Assembly: GCF_017876675.1 (NCBI RefSeq) | Contig: NZ_JAGIOI010000001.1 | Span: 2,294,001 to 2,358,000, forward strand | Reading direction: 5' to 3' | Length of the DNA: 64,000 bases | From: Arthrobacter stackebrandtii | GTDB taxonomy: Bacteria > Actinomycetota > Actinomycetes > Actinomycetales > Micrococcaceae | In this document: one piece after another, positions 7,903 to 35,850 of the stretch | How positions within the stretch are numbered: the first letter of the stretch is position 1 | Layout of the letters: each line of letters opens with the position of its first letter | The notes under the pieces: model-generated | Told to the model about the DNA's origin: nothing | The model's input: only the letters and a program-made list of their open reading frames with translations | Database searches by the model: none | Position numbers and translations under genes: made by a program

Positions 7903-8071
7903 ATGTTGGCAGGATGAATCCAGCGTAAGTTCGCTCGAGCCTGCAAAGGGGCTCCTGAAAGTCATAGCCACGGTCTCCTCCGGACCAGGGTGCCCCTGAG
8001 GTCCGCCACGGTCTGCCCCTGCCGGCCTGGCCGGAAGCGCTCTGTCCTGCCCCGTGGCGCCTCTGTGCTAC

Positions 8072-8096
8072 AGTTATTATCAAGTTGATAATAACT
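8072..8096 (+). promoter_or_regulatory. 25-bp perfect palindrome, probable NrtR operator
   Basis: AGTTATTATCAA (8072-8083), a central G (8084), TTGATAATAACT (8085-8096). The arms are exact reverse complements and AT-rich in a GC-rich setting. It sits 17 bases before the pnuC start, and the operon encodes an NrtR-type regulator, whose family binds such palindromes upstream of NAD genes. Confidence 0.8.
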
Positions 8097-8113
8097 ACTC
8101 AAGAGGAGGCGCC

Positions 8114-8767
8114 ATGAACGCCATCATCGACTGGCTCAACGCCACGGCCTTCACCCTTCTGGACAACCCGGTGAGCTGGGTTGAGGTCATCGGCTTCGCC
8201 ACCGGCGCCGCCTGCGTGTGGGGCGTGGCCCGGCAGAAGATCTGGAACTGGGGCGTGGGCATCCTGAACAACATTGCCTTCGTGATCCTGTTCCTCGGCG
8301 CCGGCCTCTACGGAGAAACGCTCCTGCAGGTCATCTTCGCCGCCATCGCCGTCTACGGCTGGATCAAGTGGAGCCGCGGCGCCAGCGGAACGGCCGGCGC
8401 CAACGACCTCCCCATCCGCAGCGCCACCCGCACCGAGGCGCTCACGGGAGCCGCCGCCGTCGTGCTGGCAACGGCAGCCATCGCCTGGCTGCTGCACGCC
8501 GGGACCGACTCGGTGGTCCCCATTCCCGACGCCTTCGTCCTCGCCGCCTCGCTCGTGGCCACCTACGCCCAGGCGAAGAAAATCTTCCAGCACTGGTACG
8601 TCTGGATCGTGATCGACCTCGTCTCGGTCCCGCTCTACTTCAGCCGCGGCCTGGCGCTGACCGCCATCCTCTACATCGGCTTCCTGGCCCTGTGCCTGTA
8701 CGGCCTGCTTGGCTGGAACCGCCTCCGCAAAACCGCCGCACCCGAACCCGCACTGGCAGGAGTCTGA
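8114..8767 (+). CDS. pnuC: Nicotinamide riboside transporter PnuC
   Basis: 217 residues. An integral membrane protein that takes up nicotinamide riboside, which NadR then phosphorylates and traps. ATG 8114 follows GAGGAGG (8103-8109). About seven hydrophobic helices are visible; the family signature lies near residues 160-176 (WYVWIVIDLVSVPLYF). The stop is two bases before nadR, so the genes form one operon. The palindrome upstream suggests repression when NAD is sufficient. Confidence 0.92.
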   Translation: MNAIIDWLNATAFTLLDNPVSWVEVIGFATGAACVWGVARQKIWNWGVGILNNIAFVILFLGAGLYGETLLQVIFAAIAVYGWIKWSRGASGTAGANDLPIRSATRTEALTGAAAVVLATAAIAWLLHAGTDSVVPIPDAFVLAASLVATYAQAKKIFQHWYVWIVIDLVSVPLYFSRGLALTAILYIGFLALCLYGLLGWNRLRKTAAPEPALAGV

Positions 8768-8769
8768 CC

Positions 8770-9870
8770 ATGGAGAACGCACTCGTCATTGGCAAGTTCT
8801 ACCCGCCCCATGCCGGCCACCGGCACCTGATTGCCACGGCCGCAGCCGCCGCCCGGCACGTGTACGTGCTGGTCCAGGGGAGCCGCTTTGAGTCGCTCAC
8901 CGCCGCCCGGCGTGCCGCCTGGCTTGAGGAAGAGTTCGACGGCGGAAACGTCACCATTGTGCCGGTCCGCAACGACTGCCCCGTGGACTACGCCAGTGAC
9001 GAGATTTGGGCCGCGCAGGTGGAGAACATGCGTTGGGCGCTCAAAGCCAAGGGTGTGGAAAAGGTTGACGCCGTGTTCACGTCTGAGGCTTACGGCGAGC
9101 GGCTGGCGGACGCGTTTGGTGCCGCCCACATGGTGGTCGACCCGGCACGCAGCACCCACCGCATCAGCGGCACCGCCTGCCGGGAGGACCTGGCGGGAAA
9201 CTGGGGCCGGCTGGTTCCGGCGGCACGGCGCGGGCTGGCCGTGCGGGTGATCGTGGTCGGCGCGGAATCGACCGGCACCACCACGCTCAGCGAGGCACTG
9301 ACGGCGCACTACCGCCGGCAATTCCCGGCCATGCGCGACGTCACCGAGCACGGCCGCTTCTACACTTACGAACTGCTGGAGAAGCTGCAGGTGGAACATC
9401 GCGGGGCAACCGTGGAGGACCTGGTGTGGACGGATGCGGACTTTGGCATCATCGCCACCCGGCAGACCGCCATGGAGCAGGCCGCCGCGGAGGCCGCACC
9501 ACTCGTCATTGCGGACACCGACGCACTCGCCACCACCTTGTGGGAGCGGTACTACCTGGGCGATGGCAGCTACGGCTCGTACGAGGCCCTGACCCACCTG
9601 CCCCGCCGCGACGTGTACCTGCTGACCGACTTCAACGGCGTGGACTTTGAAGACGACGGCTGGCGCGAAGGCGAGCACCGGCGCCCCGAAATGACCGAAT
9701 GGTTCAAGGAGGCGCTGACCGAGGAGGGCCACTCGTGGATCCTCGTGACAGGCAGCCATGAACGCCGCATGGCCACCGCCACCGCCGTCATTGATGCCAT
9801 GCTGGAACAGCAAAACACGTTCACGGCCCCCGCCTGGGCCGGCCGCACAGTGCTGGAAGGAGCGGCGTGA
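8770..9870 (+). CDS. nadR: NadR-type NMN adenylyltransferase / ribosylnicotinamide kinase
   Basis: 366 residues. The N-terminal half is a nucleotidyltransferase with GKFYPPHAGH, giving HxGH at 14-17 (NMN to NAD). The C-terminal half (about 158-350) is a P-loop kinase for nicotinamide riboside. Its Walker A reads GAESTGTTT (164-172), with Thr where the usual GK[ST] lysine would be. My recollection is that some actinobacterial homologues share this change. I placed the start at ATG 8770, two bases after the pnuC stop. The end overlaps the next start as GTGA. Confidence 0.9.
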   Translation: MENALVIGKFYPPHAGHRHLIATAAAAARHVYVLVQGSRFESLTAARRAAWLEEEFDGGNVTIVPVRNDCPVDYASDEIWAAQVENMRWALKAKGVEKVDAVFTSEAYGERLADAFGAAHMVVDPARSTHRISGTACREDLAGNWGRLVPAARRGLAVRVIVVGAESTGTTTLSEALTAHYRRQFPAMRDVTEHGRFYTYELLEKLQVEHRGATVEDLVWTDADFGIIATRQTAMEQAAAEAAPLVIADTDALATTLWERYYLGDGSYGSYEALTHLPRRDVYLLTDFNGVDFEDDGWREGEHRRPEMTEWFKEALTEEGHSWILVTGSHERRMATATAVIDAMLEQQNTFTAPAWAGRTVLEGAA

Positions 9871-31212: not shown

Positions 31213-32511
31213 TCAGTAGCTGGGTGCCGCGGCGAGCCCGAAGTACTGCTCGAGGGTCTGGTAGCCGCGGTTGTGCATGTCGGTGGCCGTCCGGACGCCG
31301 ATGTAGCGCAGGTGCCAGGGCTCGTAGGTGTAGCCGGTGGTCCAGTCCTGGCCCCATGGGTATCGGATGATGAAGCCGTACCGCCAGGCATTGTTGGCGG
31401 CGAATTGTCCTGCCGGCGTGTTTTCAAAGCAGGCCTGCAGCGAGCAGGCGCCGTTCGGATTGCCAATGTCCATGACGAGCCCGGTCTGGTGCTCGCTGTA
31501 GCCGGGGCGTGCGGAAATGGTGTCTGCGACGGCCTGCCCGTATTGGGAAACGTATGAGTTGTACAGCCCCACCTGCGTGTCATAAGACCGGAAGCCGCTG
31601 ACAGGGGTGAGTGCAACCCCAGCTGCTGACGCCCCGGCGACCAGCTGTGAGTATTGCCAGGACGCCTCGCTGCGCATGAGCTGGGAACCGACCCAGGCGA
31701 GATCCGGCGGTGTCTGGTTGATGGGTGAATTGGGCCGCCTTTTGTTGACCACCACCCCGGTGCTGCCGGCATAGGGGTTGACGCTGACGCCGGCGAACGT
31801 GGGCCAGTTGATGGTGCCGCCCTGGAAATACTGGACGCAGCTCAAGGGGGAGCCGCCGCACTGCTCCTCGCTGGTGGGATATCCCAGCGGGCTGCGTTCG
31901 TAACCCATCTGGACCCACTTGGCGCCGATGGCGCCGTGGACGGAATGGGAGCCCACCGACGGCTGCCAGTACACGTAGCCGCCCTGGAAGTTTTGCACGC
32001 AGCCGCCGGAAACCAGGGTGCAGTTTTCCCCGGAGATGGGGTATCCGAGGACGCCGTGCTCGGCGCCCATTTGGTCCCAACGGGCCCCGATGCCGCCCTT
32101 GACCGGATTGGCACCGGCGCTGCGCTGCCAGTACATGCGCCCGCCCTGGTACTTCTGCACGCAGCCGGAACCGGCCAACGTGCAGCTTTCATCCGTGGTG
32201 GGGTAGCCCAGGAATCCCCGCTCCCAGTTGAGCGAGCCCCACCGCCCAAGGATGGCGCCGACGGCCATGTGCGCACCTGTTCCCGGCGACCAGTAGATGC
32301 TGCCGTTCCGGTAGCCGCGGTAGCAGCCGCCTTGGGCAAGGCCGCAGCGCAGCGGCGTGATGGCAGCCCCCAGTTGTGGATTCTTCGCATACTTCGCGGC
32401 AATCGCGTTGTTGTCGGGCGTTGCTGCCGTGGCAGGCCCGGGCCCTGCCGTGAAGACCCCCAGCAGGGAAAACACCGCCAGCACCAGGAGCAATAATCGT
32501 CTGGTCTTCAT
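31213..32511 (-). CDS. Secreted D,D-/L,D-carboxypeptidase (VanY/M15B) with LGFP repeats
   Basis: 432 residues, ATG 32511, with a signal peptide (hydrophobic 6-22, ending ATAA). Residues about 60-265 hold four to five LGFP-type repeats (ERGFLGYPTTDESC, EHGVLGYPISGENC, ERSPLGYPTSEEQC), wall-binding modules known from Corynebacterineae and relatives. The C-terminal 150 residues are the VanY domain with zinc motifs GYSEHQTGLVMDIG and YEPWHLRYIG. It should trim peptidoglycan stem peptides at the wall. The Cys pairs in each repeat (for example CTLAGSGC) could form disulfides. It is divergent from the FDER membrane protein genes. Confidence 0.88.
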   Translation of the reverse strand: MKTRRLLLLVLAVFSLLGVFTAGPGPATAATPDNNAIAAKYAKNPQLGAAITPLRCGLAQGGCYRGYRNGSIYWSPGTGAHMAVGAILGRWGSLNWERGFLGYPTTDESCTLAGSGCVQKYQGGRMYWQRSAGANPVKGGIGARWDQMGAEHGVLGYPISGENCTLVSGGCVQNFQGGYVYWQPSVGSHSVHGAIGAKWVQMGYERSPLGYPTSEEQCGGSPLSCVQYFQGGTINWPTFAGVSVNPYAGSTGVVVNKRRPNSPINQTPPDLAWVGSQLMRSEASWQYSQLVAGASAAGVALTPVSGFRSYDTQVGLYNSYVSQYGQAVADTISARPGYSEHQTGLVMDIGNPNGACSLQACFENTPAGQFAANNAWRYGFIIRYPWGQDWTTGYTYEPWHLRYIGVRTATDMHNRGYQTLEQYFGLAAAPSY

Positions 32512-32665
32512 GGCAAAGCCGCCTTGTCCAGTCAACGTTGATTTTTCGACCATAAATCGAATCGCGCGGCAGGACAAGGGGCGGCCTGTCATGGATGCGT
32601 GGGGGAGCGCTTCGCTGGGTAAGCTGAAGGGATATTTTCCTTCCGGCACGGCATATTGGGGTGGC

Positions 32666-33739
32666 ATGGGCGAGCAGCAGTTTGATGAACGTTATCCGGC
32701 GATGTTCCAGCCGGGCGGCGAGGCAGCTCCAGCCCACCTGCAATGGCCGGTGACGTCGGAAACTGCTCCCACAACCATCCGGGACCACACTGCTTCCGGT
32801 CCGCCGGCGGCCGTTGGGGGATTCTCGCCGATCGGCCACGAGAGCCCGAACCGGCCGGCCCTTGCCGACGAAACTGCATCGGAGCCGGTCGCGGCGCCGG
32901 CGTCGGCTCCGGCGGCTGCGGGGGCCCGGTTGGCCGGGTGGGTGGCGGCCTGTGTTGCTGTGCTGCTGGTGGCTGCCGGAATCACGATCGCGGCGATTCC
33001 TGCGGTGATGTCGCAGTCACAGATGAACTCCCAGGGCTACGACCCGATCATGATGTGGGTGTACACGGCCGGGCAGGCGGGCGCCCCCATGGTTGGGGTG
33101 GGGCTGGGCACCCTGGCTGCCATATTGCTCCTGAACATCCTCCTGCATCCGCAACGTGCGGAGGGGCTCCGGCGGCTCTTTGCCATCGCCACAGCGGCTG
33201 TCCTTTTTGCCGGATTCTATGCCCAGTTCGCCGTGTTCTTCATGCAGCCGGTGCCGCAGAAGATGTACGACTCCTTCGGCAACGAAGGCTACACGGTCAT
33301 CTCCACGCCGGTGGCGGCGACGGCCATGTCGTTGGTGGCATTTGGTCCACTGCTGGTCGGTTTGCTGATGTTGGCCGTTGTCGCGGCGGGACGGCAGCTC
33401 TCGCCGCTCCGCTTGTCACTTGTGGGGTTGGCAATGCTTGCCGCGGCGGTTGCGGCTCAGTTTGCTCCGGCAATGTTCCCGGATTCATTAATGGCCGCCC
33501 AGACATTCGAGCCAGGGGCCCAGCCCATGGTGGCATGGCCGTACTGGCTGCCCGGACTCACGCCGTCGCTGGTGGCAGCAGGGGCGTCGGTCCTTGCCGG
33601 GGCCGCGCTGATGCCCGTGCTGGTGGCAGCGCTCCGCCTGACCAAGGCGCACGAGCTGCGCGGCGATGGCCAAGGCTCCACTGAATCCCCAGCCACAGCC
33701 CACGAGCAGAAAGCCAACAATGCCCAGCAGCAACTTTGA
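32666..33739 (+). CDS. Unknown membrane protein with N-terminal FDERYPAMFQPGG tag (member 1)
   Basis: 357 residues. ATG 32666 is chosen because it places the shared tag FDERYPAMFQPGGE at residues 6-19, as in the two following genes. Residues 20-85 are a Pro/Ala-rich, probably cytosolic linker. About six hydrophobic helices follow between residues 86 and 335. I know no family for it. The membrane part is distinct from members 2 and 3, so only the tag is common. The gene overlaps member 2 by 20 bases, so the two are co-translated. Confidence 0.75.
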   Translation: MGEQQFDERYPAMFQPGGEAAPAHLQWPVTSETAPTTIRDHTASGPPAAVGGFSPIGHESPNRPALADETASEPVAAPASAPAAAGARLAGWVAACVAVLLVAAGITIAAIPAVMSQSQMNSQGYDPIMMWVYTAGQAGAPMVGVGLGTLAAILLLNILLHPQRAEGLRRLFAIATAAVLFAGFYAQFAVFFMQPVPQKMYDSFGNEGYTVISTPVAATAMSLVAFGPLLVGLLMLAVVAAGRQLSPLRLSLVGLAMLAAAVAAQFAPAMFPDSLMAAQTFEPGAQPMVAWPYWLPGLTPSLVAAGASVLAGAALMPVLVAALRLTKAHELRGDGQGSTESPATAHEQKANNAQQQL

Positions 33740-34712
33740 CGAGCGCTACCCCGCGATGTTCCAACCGGGCGGTGAGACGACGGGAATGATCGTTGAGGAC
33801 CCCACCGCCTACCATTCGGAGCGCGCCCAGACGCTGCACGTCATGCCGGAACCCATCATGCCGGAGCACGTCCCCCCGCTGCATGAGGGGCACGAACCCA
33901 CCCGCGGCGGGAATGCGGAGGCAGCGCCATGGCCGTTTTTGACATGGCTGGGACCCTTGCTGGTGGCATTCGTCTTGCTGGCCGGGGGAGTGTTCTCCTT
34001 GAGCGCTCAGTATTGGCTGCCATCAGCCACGACATTTGACCCGTCGAAGTTTCAGGGTGTGGATCTGCAGCCGTGGGGCTATGCCGTTGTGACGGCCGCG
34101 GCGCCCCTTTTCATGGCTGGATGCGGCATTCTGGGCGCACTGGTGTTTCTCGCCTCGCGCCGGGACGCGGACCGAGAGGCCTCCTTCAGGCGTGGCTTCG
34201 GGGTGCTGGCGGCGGCGATTGGCGTGGCCGGCTGGGTGGGCATGTTCGCCCCGTCGATGTTCCCGCAGGCCCTGTCCAACTTCGGTGACAACAGCGGCGG
34301 CTATGCCGCAATGCCATGGACGTACTTGGTGGGCGGCAGCGGGTTGTGGCTGTTCATCTTGGCACTGTCCATGACAGCGGTGCTCACCGTGCTGCCACCG
34401 GGGCAGGGGCGGCCGCGCCCTTTGCGCGGCCTGGGTCTTGGCGCGGTGCTGTCGATGGCCGGAACTTACGCCCTGTTGGCCCCCTACCTGCACCCCACGG
34501 CGACGGGCACCGTTATCGTCGAGCTGGCCAACGGCGCCCAGGCCACCAGTCAGGGTTGGGCGGCACTGGCGCCGACGCTGGCCGCCCCGCTGCTGCTTGT
34601 CGGGCTCGCAGTCATCGGCTGGGCCGTGCTCTACCTTGCCGCCACTGCCCGCCGCGGCCCGGCAGCGGAAGGTGGGCCGTCCGCCGTCGAGCCTGAAAAC
34701 GAAGAATCCTAG
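33720..34712 (+). CDS. Unknown membrane protein with FDERYPAMFQPGG tag (member 2)
   Basis: 330 residues, ATG 33720 inside the end of member 1. The tag NFDERYPAMFQPGGE is at residues 5-19. A His/Pro-rich linker follows, then about six hydrophobic helices. Blocks shared with member 3 include SLSAQYWLPS, FQGVDLQPWG, GALVFLASRR, GWVGMFAP and the C-terminal RRGPAAEGGPSAVEP. Members 2 and 3 are thus duplicates over their whole length and member 1 is a more distant partner. Function unknown. Confidence 0.78.
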   Translation: MPSSNFDERYPAMFQPGGETTGMIVEDPTAYHSERAQTLHVMPEPIMPEHVPPLHEGHEPTRGGNAEAAPWPFLTWLGPLLVAFVLLAGGVFSLSAQYWLPSATTFDPSKFQGVDLQPWGYAVVTAAAPLFMAGCGILGALVFLASRRDADREASFRRGFGVLAAAIGVAGWVGMFAPSMFPQALSNFGDNSGGYAAMPWTYLVGGSGLWLFILALSMTAVLTVLPPGQGRPRPLRGLGLGAVLSMAGTYALLAPYLHPTATGTVIVELANGAQATSQGWAALAPTLAAPLLLVGLAVIGWAVLYLAATARRGPAAEGGPSAVEPENEES

Positions 34713-34863
34713 GCTGCAGCAGGACACATTCCCGCCTCCTCATTGTCATGGCGGGCATGGAGATTTAGCCTTTCAGTAGGAAGGCCCGCCGGCATGCCGG
34801 AAGCGCGGCGGGAGCGGGCCTGCCAGGGGGAGAAGGACAACTCCGTCGATGAGGAAGTGGACC

Positions 34864-35850
34864 ATGTCCAGCCGGAACTTTGACGAGCGGTTCCCCGCCA
34901 TGTTTCAGCCCGGCGGGGAGGACGCCGCTGAAGACTGGCCGCCGCCCGCCATGGAATTTGTCGCCCCGCAGGCGGCCGGCGCGCAGGCGCACATCGCGCA
35001 GGGTTCGGGAGGGCAGGACGCCGGCACCGCGCTTGCGGGCACGCCGCAGCGTTCACCGCAATCTTCCCCGGTGCCAGCCTGGCCGCGCCGGGGCTGGCTG
35101 GCCCCGATGGCGGCCGCCGTGGCCATGCTGTGCGCCGGGGCGTTCGCCCTGGCGGCGCAGTACTGGATGCCTTCATCCATCGAGTTCGGCAGGGCCGCGT
35201 TCCAGGGCGTCGAGCTGCAGCCGTGGGGCGAGATTGTCCATGCCGCGGCGCCGCCCCTGTTGGCAGCGGGCACGGGCATCCTGGCGGCGCTGCTGTTCCT
35301 CGCATCCCGCCGCACTGCTGCACGGGAGCGCCCGCTGCGGGTGGTGTTTGCAGCGGCGGCGGTTGTGGTTGTGCTGTCCGGATGGACGGGCATGTTTGCG
35401 CCGGTGCTTTTCCAGGACGCGGCGGTGCAGTCGACGGGCGGCGGCACACACGCCTATGTGCGTCCCTGGACCTACATGGTGGGCCCCAGCGGCACCTGGT
35501 TGTTTGCGGCCGGGTTGCTGATGCTCGCGGTCCTGGTTGTGGTGCCCACCGGGGGCCGCCCCCTGCCCGTCCGCGGCCTGTGGCTGGGGGCAGCCATGGC
35601 AGCCGCGGGACTGTGCGCCCTGTTCGTGGAGTACCTGGCGCCCCTGCTGGCCGGGGTCGTCATTGTTGAAGTCTTTCGGGGGCAGGTGGTCACACACCAG
35701 GACTGGGCGTTCCTGGCCCCGTTGCTCGTCGCACCGCTGCTGCTCTCCGGCCTCGCGGTCATCGGATGGGCCCTGCTTTGCCGGGCCGCCTCACCCCGCC
35801 GCGGCCCGGCATCGGCAGGCGGGCCGTCCGCCGTCGAACCTGGCCAGTAG
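34864..35850 (+). CDS. Unknown membrane protein with FDERFPAMFQPGG tag (member 3)
   Basis: 328 residues. ATG 34864 with GAGGAAG upstream. The tag NFDERFPAMFQPGGE is at 5-19, then an Ala/Gln-rich linker to about residue 75, then six hydrophobic helices. It matches member 2 in ALAAQYWMPS, FQGVELQPWG, ALLFLASRR, GWTGMFAP and C-terminal RRGPASAGGPSAVEP. The 150-base gap from member 2 may carry its own promoter. The identical ends with variable linkers suggest that both tails contact the same partner. Confidence 0.78.
   Translation: MSSRNFDERFPAMFQPGGEDAAEDWPPPAMEFVAPQAAGAQAHIAQGSGGQDAGTALAGTPQRSPQSSPVPAWPRRGWLAPMAAAVAMLCAGAFALAAQYWMPSSIEFGRAAFQGVELQPWGEIVHAAAPPLLAAGTGILAALLFLASRRTAARERPLRVVFAAAAVVVVLSGWTGMFAPVLFQDAAVQSTGGGTHAYVRPWTYMVGPSGTWLFAAGLLMLAVLVVVPTGGRPLPVRGLWLGAAMAAAGLCALFVEYLAPLLAGVVIVEVFRGQVVTHQDWAFLAPLLVAPLLLSGLAVIGWALLCRAASPRRGPASAGGPSAVEPGQ

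Follow-up and report, generated by a model that had tools for sequence, protein, structure and literature searches.

Three described systems come closest to the proteins reported here. GlpR of Corynebacterium glutamicum is a divergent, partly disordered membrane receptor of the gephyrin-like protein Glp, itself a binder of the FtsZ tail (PMC10522489); SepF binds the FtsZ tail through D436, P438 and F440 (PMC7118173); and GpsB binds cytoplasmic mini-domains of cell-wall synthases (PMC6335420). Here we describe three consecutive genes (positions 32666 to 35850) in a 64,000-nucleotide stretch of Arthrobacter stackebrandtii (Micrococcaceae), which covers positions 2,294,001 to 2,358,000 of the 4.43 Mb contig NZ_JAGIOI010000001.1 and is referred to below as the window. 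The genes are tandem paralogues of one membrane protein family that is present in two actinobacterial families, and their products carry a nearly invariant N-terminal tag. From comparisons of sequence, we consider it probable that this tag docks to a conserved cytosolic partner.

A conserved tag on divergent homologous proteins

The products of genes 1, 2 and 3 begin with a few variable residues followed by FDER[YF]PAMFQPGGE, with residues 6–19 reading FDERYPAMFQPGGE, FDERYPAMFQPGGE and FDERFPAMFQPGGE, respectively, as a preliminary description made from the sequence alone had noticed. That description also held that members 2 and 3 share further blocks and that member 1 shares only the tag. 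Alignment confirmed the former: members 2 and 3 share 49% identity across 338 columns and have in common AQYW[LM]PS, FQGV[DE]LQPWG and the tail GPSAVEP (in full, GGPSAVEP). The latter was refuted. BLASTP aligned members 1 and 2 over 279 columns (30% identity, E 1e-12) with the tag inside the alignment, a search with member 2 as query recovered residues 3–306 of member 1 (E 2e-7), and in the family tree member 1 clusters among other proteins of the genus. Judged from these alignments, the tagged proteins compared are one fast-diverging hairpin family, with bodies that are divergent, not unrelated. Relatives of member 2 were found in 20 of the 23 genus genomes, its own included. When 30 tagged proteins were placed in a tree, each of the three members was sister to a different protein of a single other genome, G015 (supports 100/97, 100/99 and 100/100), which indicates that the triplication predates the split of these two species.

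A loose tag pattern identified 31 tagged frames in 20 compared loci, and 30 of these were aligned, the 175-residue frame of L039 being omitted. Among the 30 genus proteins (435 pairs), median pairwise identity was 85% in the 13 columns of the tag, 17% in the linker that follows it and 27% in the body, figures to be read with the caveat that selecting rows by a tag pattern favours tag conservation. When the altered tags of G004 and G009 were included, the tag median was still 85% and the minimum fell from 62% to 46%. All eight invariant residues lie within the first 17 (M1, F6, D7, R9, P11, F14, Q15 and G17 in the numbering of member 2). Two of the 20 loci, L041 and L050, had no tagged frame under the loose pattern. 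The L041 protein has an altered tag, TDDRYPAIYQRGG, which was read from L012 of the same genome. At L050 (G014; 8060–9148), the match to member 2 falls in an apparently broken frame; the upstream part of the frame is unlike the family and tagless, and the copy looks decayed.

Conservation acts at the level of the peptide. Pairwise, the three window tags differ at 7, 9 and 6 of 13 third codon positions, as compared with 0, 1 and 1 residues, so that third positions vary freely while the residues are kept; a nucleotide element in place of a peptide was ruled out on the same grounds. Lysine and arginine residues number 24 and 16 per 100 in the cytosolic loops as compared with 2–3 per 100 in the outer loops, and this distribution places the N terminus, the tag and the linker inside the cell. 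A tag-only profile built from the 31 tags, the three window tags among them, found these three in their own genome at E 1.2e-12, 5.4e-11 and 3.5e-10, and the next place at E 0.3.

The bodies appear to be built from a repeated two-helix unit. By simple hydropathy, members 1, 2 and 3 have 6, 5 and 6 helix windows, respectively, and repeat analysis resolved three hairpins in each, which agrees with the roughly six helices first proposed; six windows are present in 27 of the 30 genus members. The alignment was cut into three two-helix pieces, and these were compared as profiles. The units matched each other in hhalign at E 2.8e-10, 5.1e-11 and 1.2e-12 (column-reversed controls, 3e-4 to 0.3), and single-hairpin relatives from other genera matched them with E values of 5e-8 to 6e-7 (3e-4 to 4e-3 in the reversed controls). 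On the basis of these matches the genus proteins have the appearance of a threefold fusion of a hairpin that occurs singly elsewhere, most tagged relatives seen outside the genus having one hairpin.

All three genes lie on the plus strand and encode tagged six-helix membrane proteins. Gene 1 (32666–33739, 357 aa), an open frame that starts with ATG, is preceded by GGGGTGG and is homologous to genes 2 and 3. Its tag (FDERYPAMFQPGG) occupies 32681–32719, followed by a variable Pro/Ala-rich linker (32723–32938) and hairpin units 1, 2 and 3 at 32939–33142, 33143–33394 and 33395–33619. Gene 2 (33720–34712, 330 aa) has its tag (FDERYPAMFQPGG) at 33735–33773, its variable linker at 33777–33926 and its units at 33927–34160, 34161–34397 and 34398–34640. 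The 5′ end of gene 2 overlaps gene 1 by 20 bases (33720–33739), as noted before, and coordinates give overlaps of the same size for tagged genes of the related loci L034 and L035. In gene 3 (34864–35850, 328 aa), the tag (FDERFPAMFQPGG) lies at 34879–34917, the variable linker at 34921–35079 and the units at 35080–35310, 35311–35547 and 35548–35787.

Occurrence beyond the genus and gene context

Searches with a narrow tag profile gave strong matches in the same genus only (245 genomes of the family), and 11 genomes from outside the genus scored E 0.017 to 0.1; in the order the profile gave 3 matches among 297, the own genome counted. With a full-length profile, other genera yielded short proteins whose tags include YDPRYDGIYQRGG, FDQRYDTIYQRGG and MDERYESMYQRGH, the last of these being shortened. 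Full-length and single-hairpin profiles together recovered a broader tag, [FIV]DPR[FY]DPxFQ[RP]G[YF], close to the N terminus of relatives that have a single hairpin and belong to other genera of the family or to Microbacteriaceae, which ruled out a tag confined to the genus. One variant distinct from the window form reads FDPRFDPAFQRGY. Named genomes were searched with the pattern FDPR[FY]DPAFQRG[YF]; its 22 matches are tag-selected and thus uninformative on tag conservation. They come from Leifsonia, Salinibacterium, Herbiconiux and Rhodoglobus, from Microbacteriaceae and Actinomycetota bins and from a single bin with the label Aeromicrobium. The alignment covered 20 of the 22 proteins (L156 and L170, each cut by the end of its stretch, were omitted), every one of which has two hydropathy windows downstream of the linker. 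The protein of the Aeromicrobium-labelled bin is 62% identical to one from Salinibacterium sp. G-O1, and the label is possibly a mislabel.

Two profile searches covered the same 160 genomes, from 85 genera, of a family taken as Microbacteriaceae. The broad tag profile gave 94 matches in 74 genomes and 46 genera; a body profile, made from tagged proteins, gave 106 matches in 78 genomes and 46 genera, with 67 genomes common to both. A body match lies downstream of 76 of the 94 tag matches, and 74 of the 106 body matches have a tag match directly upstream (≤900 bases). All 94 tag places were inspected: 88 have two helix windows, one has four, one has three, one is cut by the end of its stretch and three have none. 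Helix-bearing proteins therefore carry 91 of the 94 matches (89 distinct proteins), so that occurrence on unrelated proteins was ruled out, and with it the possibility, raised at the outset, of a random low-information motif. The three helix-less matches comprise L254 and two probable chance matches, L250 and L251. L254 (G564) is a tagged 67-residue frame, perhaps the remnant of a tagged gene. In 92 of the 94 matches, the tag starts at residue 2–22 from the nearest possible start codon.

Position counts over 90 parsed tags give [FIV]-D-P-R-[FY]-D-P-x-F-Q-[RP]-G-[YF]. Because D, R or E, the aromatics and Q were built into the parsing pattern, these columns are not free counts; D, Q and G are retained in 90/90, the pattern having required D, Q, and G or two alternatives. 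Two proteins, L206 (G549) and L301 (G623), have two complete tags in one N-terminal tail, and linkers in the Microbacteriaceae proteins range from ~25 to 213 residues. The family is defined here by an N-terminal D-x-R-[YF]-x-x-x-[FY]-Q-x-G followed by at least one homologous hairpin, a combination present in the genus proteins and in these relatives. Other families of the order gave weak matches to the single-hairpin profile. Across the phylum, the broad tag profile matched 3 of 246 genomes: the own genome, one from Microbacteriaceae and one with a 19.6-bit match that did not have the tag pattern when read.

Hairpin relatives without an N-terminal tag were also found. No tag match accompanies 32 body matches; 22 of these were read, and four have an altered tag (L255–L258). 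Seven of the remaining 18 (L259, L265, L266, L268, L271, L272 and L273) end in DPDLFKRPPG, DHSLFMRP, DHAIFMRP, DHSAFKRP (two), DLTPFMRP or DLTPFMPP, motifs around F-[MK]-[RP]-P, some with a few residues beyond; the other 11 have neither an N tag nor a C-terminal motif. A strict C-terminal pattern matched 6 of the 7 motif proteins, 0 of 91 N-tagged matches and 1 of 511 genes called in the loci, but the motif was first spotted by eye (six genomes, four genera) and the Fisher value of 1e-6 is therefore overstated. Of the ten unread body matches, nine have a second body match within 1.5 kb. In a different genus of the same family as the window (g10), four tagless hairpin relatives (L112, L113, L114 and L118) have a common N-terminal [IL]GFRE[IV] or NFREV followed by an acidic/Gly segment, and this stretch is possibly a second type of tag.

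The six neighbours of the tagged genes in the window belong to Aldedh, Aminotran_3 (class III), LGFP/VanY, Usp, Pyr_redox and EamA. The LGFP-repeat VanY-type D-Ala-D-Ala carboxypeptidase (31216–32667, minus strand) adjoins the tagged genes. Within the genus, an aminotransferase cluster (17/20 loci) and a universal stress protein cluster (18/20) mostly flank the tagged genes; contexts outside the genus differ. A VanY cluster is present in 5 of the 20 genus loci, one of which (L050) has no recognised tagged gene. VanY relatives also lie ~3–6 kb from the tag in 4 of the 22 named loci, all Leifsonia (L157, L168, L170 and L174), three confirmed by Pfam and L170 by similarity only. The carboxypeptidase was the sole recurring neighbour found; it occurs too sparsely for a partner and was retained as a hint. 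Plasmid and phage collections gave no match for member P0002 or for one single-hairpin protein, and a mobile or phage origin is unsupported.

Possible roles of the tag

Because the tag remains constant while the body changes freely, it most likely meets a slowly changing surface outside its own protein, and the freely varying body is itself unlikely to provide the partner face. In the mechanism we propose, an N-terminal cytosolic docking peptide with the core D-x-R-[YF]-x-x-x-[FY]-Q-x-G would plug into a surface of a conserved cytosolic partner, a variable and probably disordered linker (disorder being judged from composition) would give it reach, and the hairpins would fix the position of the partner, or their own, within the membrane. 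Variable linkers and double tags fit a tethered docking peptide. Docking appears to be the best reading of a tag far better conserved than linker and body, of the cytosolic charge pattern, of recurrence in two families on related hairpins and of the two double tags; from these, together with the homology, the threefold repeat, the N-terminal position of the tag and its linkage to the body, we infer that the tag binds another protein. The preliminary description had likewise proposed docking to one partner, and this part of it still stands; its premise of otherwise divergent carriers has to be modified, in that the bodies are homologous and not unrelated.

Several observations weigh against docking. 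No partner was found, and no directly adjacent gene is common to the genera compared. Three of the 23 genus genomes have no match to member 2, although one of these, G009, does encode a tagged protein, the tag being altered; G014 has a fragment only, its frame apparently broken. In Microbacteriaceae, 86 of the 160 genomes have no tag match, so that any role must be dispensable, and tag and body searches are not fully independent, given the origin of the body profile.

The tag could instead act as a plug or latch, folding back from the cytosolic side onto the hairpins of its own protein or of a tandem sister so as to gate or regulate them. The tag was not encountered on any other kind of protein (91/94 on helix-bearing proteins), and several genomes have tandem copies, or a tagged gene followed by a hairpin gene without a tag match, all of which would suit such an arrangement. 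The tag is nearly invariant, however, yet the cytosolic loops and helices on which it would fold are almost devoid of invariant residues, and a latch would have to work across the wide range of linker lengths in Microbacteriaceae. We regard this explanation as unlikely.

A further explanation is that the tag mimics the C-terminal peptide of FtsZ and thereby binds a hub of cell division, for instance SepF or Glp. The C-terminal motifs of the seven hairpin proteins without an N tag (such as DHSLFMRP, DLTPFMRP and DPDLFKRP) are FtsZ-tail-like in general form, the Microbacteriaceae N tag contains P-x-F-Q-[RP], DPAF occurs just before the C-terminal peptide in 5 of 16 Microbacteriaceae FtsZ tails, and the VanY-type carboxypeptidase at or near tagged loci in both families gives a faint hint of the cell wall. 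Yet in 24 of the 25 genomes read the FtsZ tail has the ending [DE][LI]D[VI]P[DE]FLK, and in the remaining one DLDLPEFFR, and the tag does not have the D-x-P-x-F spacing that SepF contacts (PMC7118173). The window tag, moreover, has PAMF and not PxF, and G550 has a tag but DPAS in its FtsZ tail. Mimicry of this kind seems improbable, and a cell-division partner is a weak lead, not a result.

The FtsZ tails (L275–L299) were also read upstream of the C-terminal peptide, where several of those from Microbacteriaceae have DPAF or D-R-x-F about ten residues before it and others have DPAS. A [DH]-x-x-F before the peptide was found in 10 of 11 tagged as compared with 1 of 5 untagged Microbacteriaceae genomes. 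Covariation of the FtsZ tail with the tag was set aside as strong support, since G550 breaks the link and the DPAS cases may be one clade. In an extension of this idea, a single docking code would exist in two versions, the tag and the C-terminal motif, and actinobacterial hairpins would present, at one end or the other, a peptide in competition with the FtsZ tail for a shared division or polarity scaffold; we put this forward as speculation with rather long odds.

The tag might also be an aromatic/arginine sticker: copies would bind one another and so cluster the proteins in the membrane. Aromatic and arginine residues on a Pro/Ala-rich tail, the tandem copies and the two double tags are compatible with this, but the fixed order and spacing, and the D, Q and G of the parsed tags (constrained as they are by the pattern), exceed what a sticker would need, and we consider such self-association doubtful. 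Signals for membrane insertion require no fixed residues. A role of the tag in biogenesis or turnover (insertion, N-terminal processing or protease recognition), suggested by its position at most 22 residues from a possible start codon in 92/94 matches, is highly improbable given its fixed residues and the second tag further in on two proteins.

Should the docking-code reading prove true, the tag would establish a new class of addressing tags for membrane proteins, and the genus proteins, with their three fused hairpins, would be single-chain forms of hairpin subunits that are separate elsewhere. A family in which nothing but a 13-residue tail is near-invariant points to a conserved binding site in a large bacterial group. 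A division or polarity scaffold as partner would open a network beyond Corynebacteriales; if the partner is no such scaffold, the analysis nevertheless defines a family that is widespread (tag matches in 46 of the 85 Microbacteriaceae genera sampled) and absent from the family libraries used.

Comparison with known families and docking systems

The preliminary description had allowed that the region might belong to a known characterised family, and none was matched in Pfam, NCBIfam, PHROG, PADLOC or the PDB. The window proteins, like five relatives, came nowhere near a curated cut-off in Pfam or NCBIfam. At E ≤0.01, the 30 genus members (against Pfam) and 20 single-hairpin members had only stray matches, in 1–2 members each, the best being Neurensin (E 3.9e-5, 2/30). 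The best PHROG match had E 0.027, PADLOC matched 0 of 3 proteins, and in the PDB the genus profile reached E 0.017 at best, with no match for P0002 or for the first 24 residues of a single-hairpin protein. In the openly licensed literature searched, the three tag strings gave no match and no paper on Microbacteriaceae with a conserved N-terminal motif and transmembrane segments was found. DUF6264 (PF19779) matched the single-hairpin relatives L092 (E 0.002) and L094 (E 0.1) weakly; the scores of 18.7 and 13.2 bits fall short of the cut-off of 31, and the family is absent among the matches of the window proteins.

The clients of GpsB are, to our knowledge, of another lineage and sequence, and the membrane protein that GpsB binds is an enzyme. 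They resemble the proposed arrangement in that a cytosolic adaptor reportedly receives a short segment, also cytosolic, of a membrane protein (PMC6335420). GlpR is similar in being a divergent actinobacterial membrane protein that has disordered cytosolic regions and binds the cytosolic hub Glp; it differs in its three predicted helices and its pair of disordered regions of opposite charge, as opposed to two or six helices and one N-terminal tag, and in that its gene is co-localised with glp while the tagged genes have other neighbours (PMC10522489). A GlpR-like count of three helices is not typical here, with six windows in 27/30 genus proteins and two in 88/94 tag matches and 20/20 named-genome proteins. 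A MoeA-like glp was not among the six window neighbours; elsewhere neighbour clusters were read, and most of these were not named by profile. The C-terminal peptide of FtsZ and its reader SepF offer a parallel in form, a conserved short peptide on a disordered linker with a conserved reader, but that peptide is C-terminal with a D-x-P-x-F core, as opposed to an N-terminal tag with other spacing (PMC7118173). The Microbacteriaceae N tag has P-x-F without a D two places before the P, the window tag has neither, and some of the C-terminal motifs have D-x-x-x-F.

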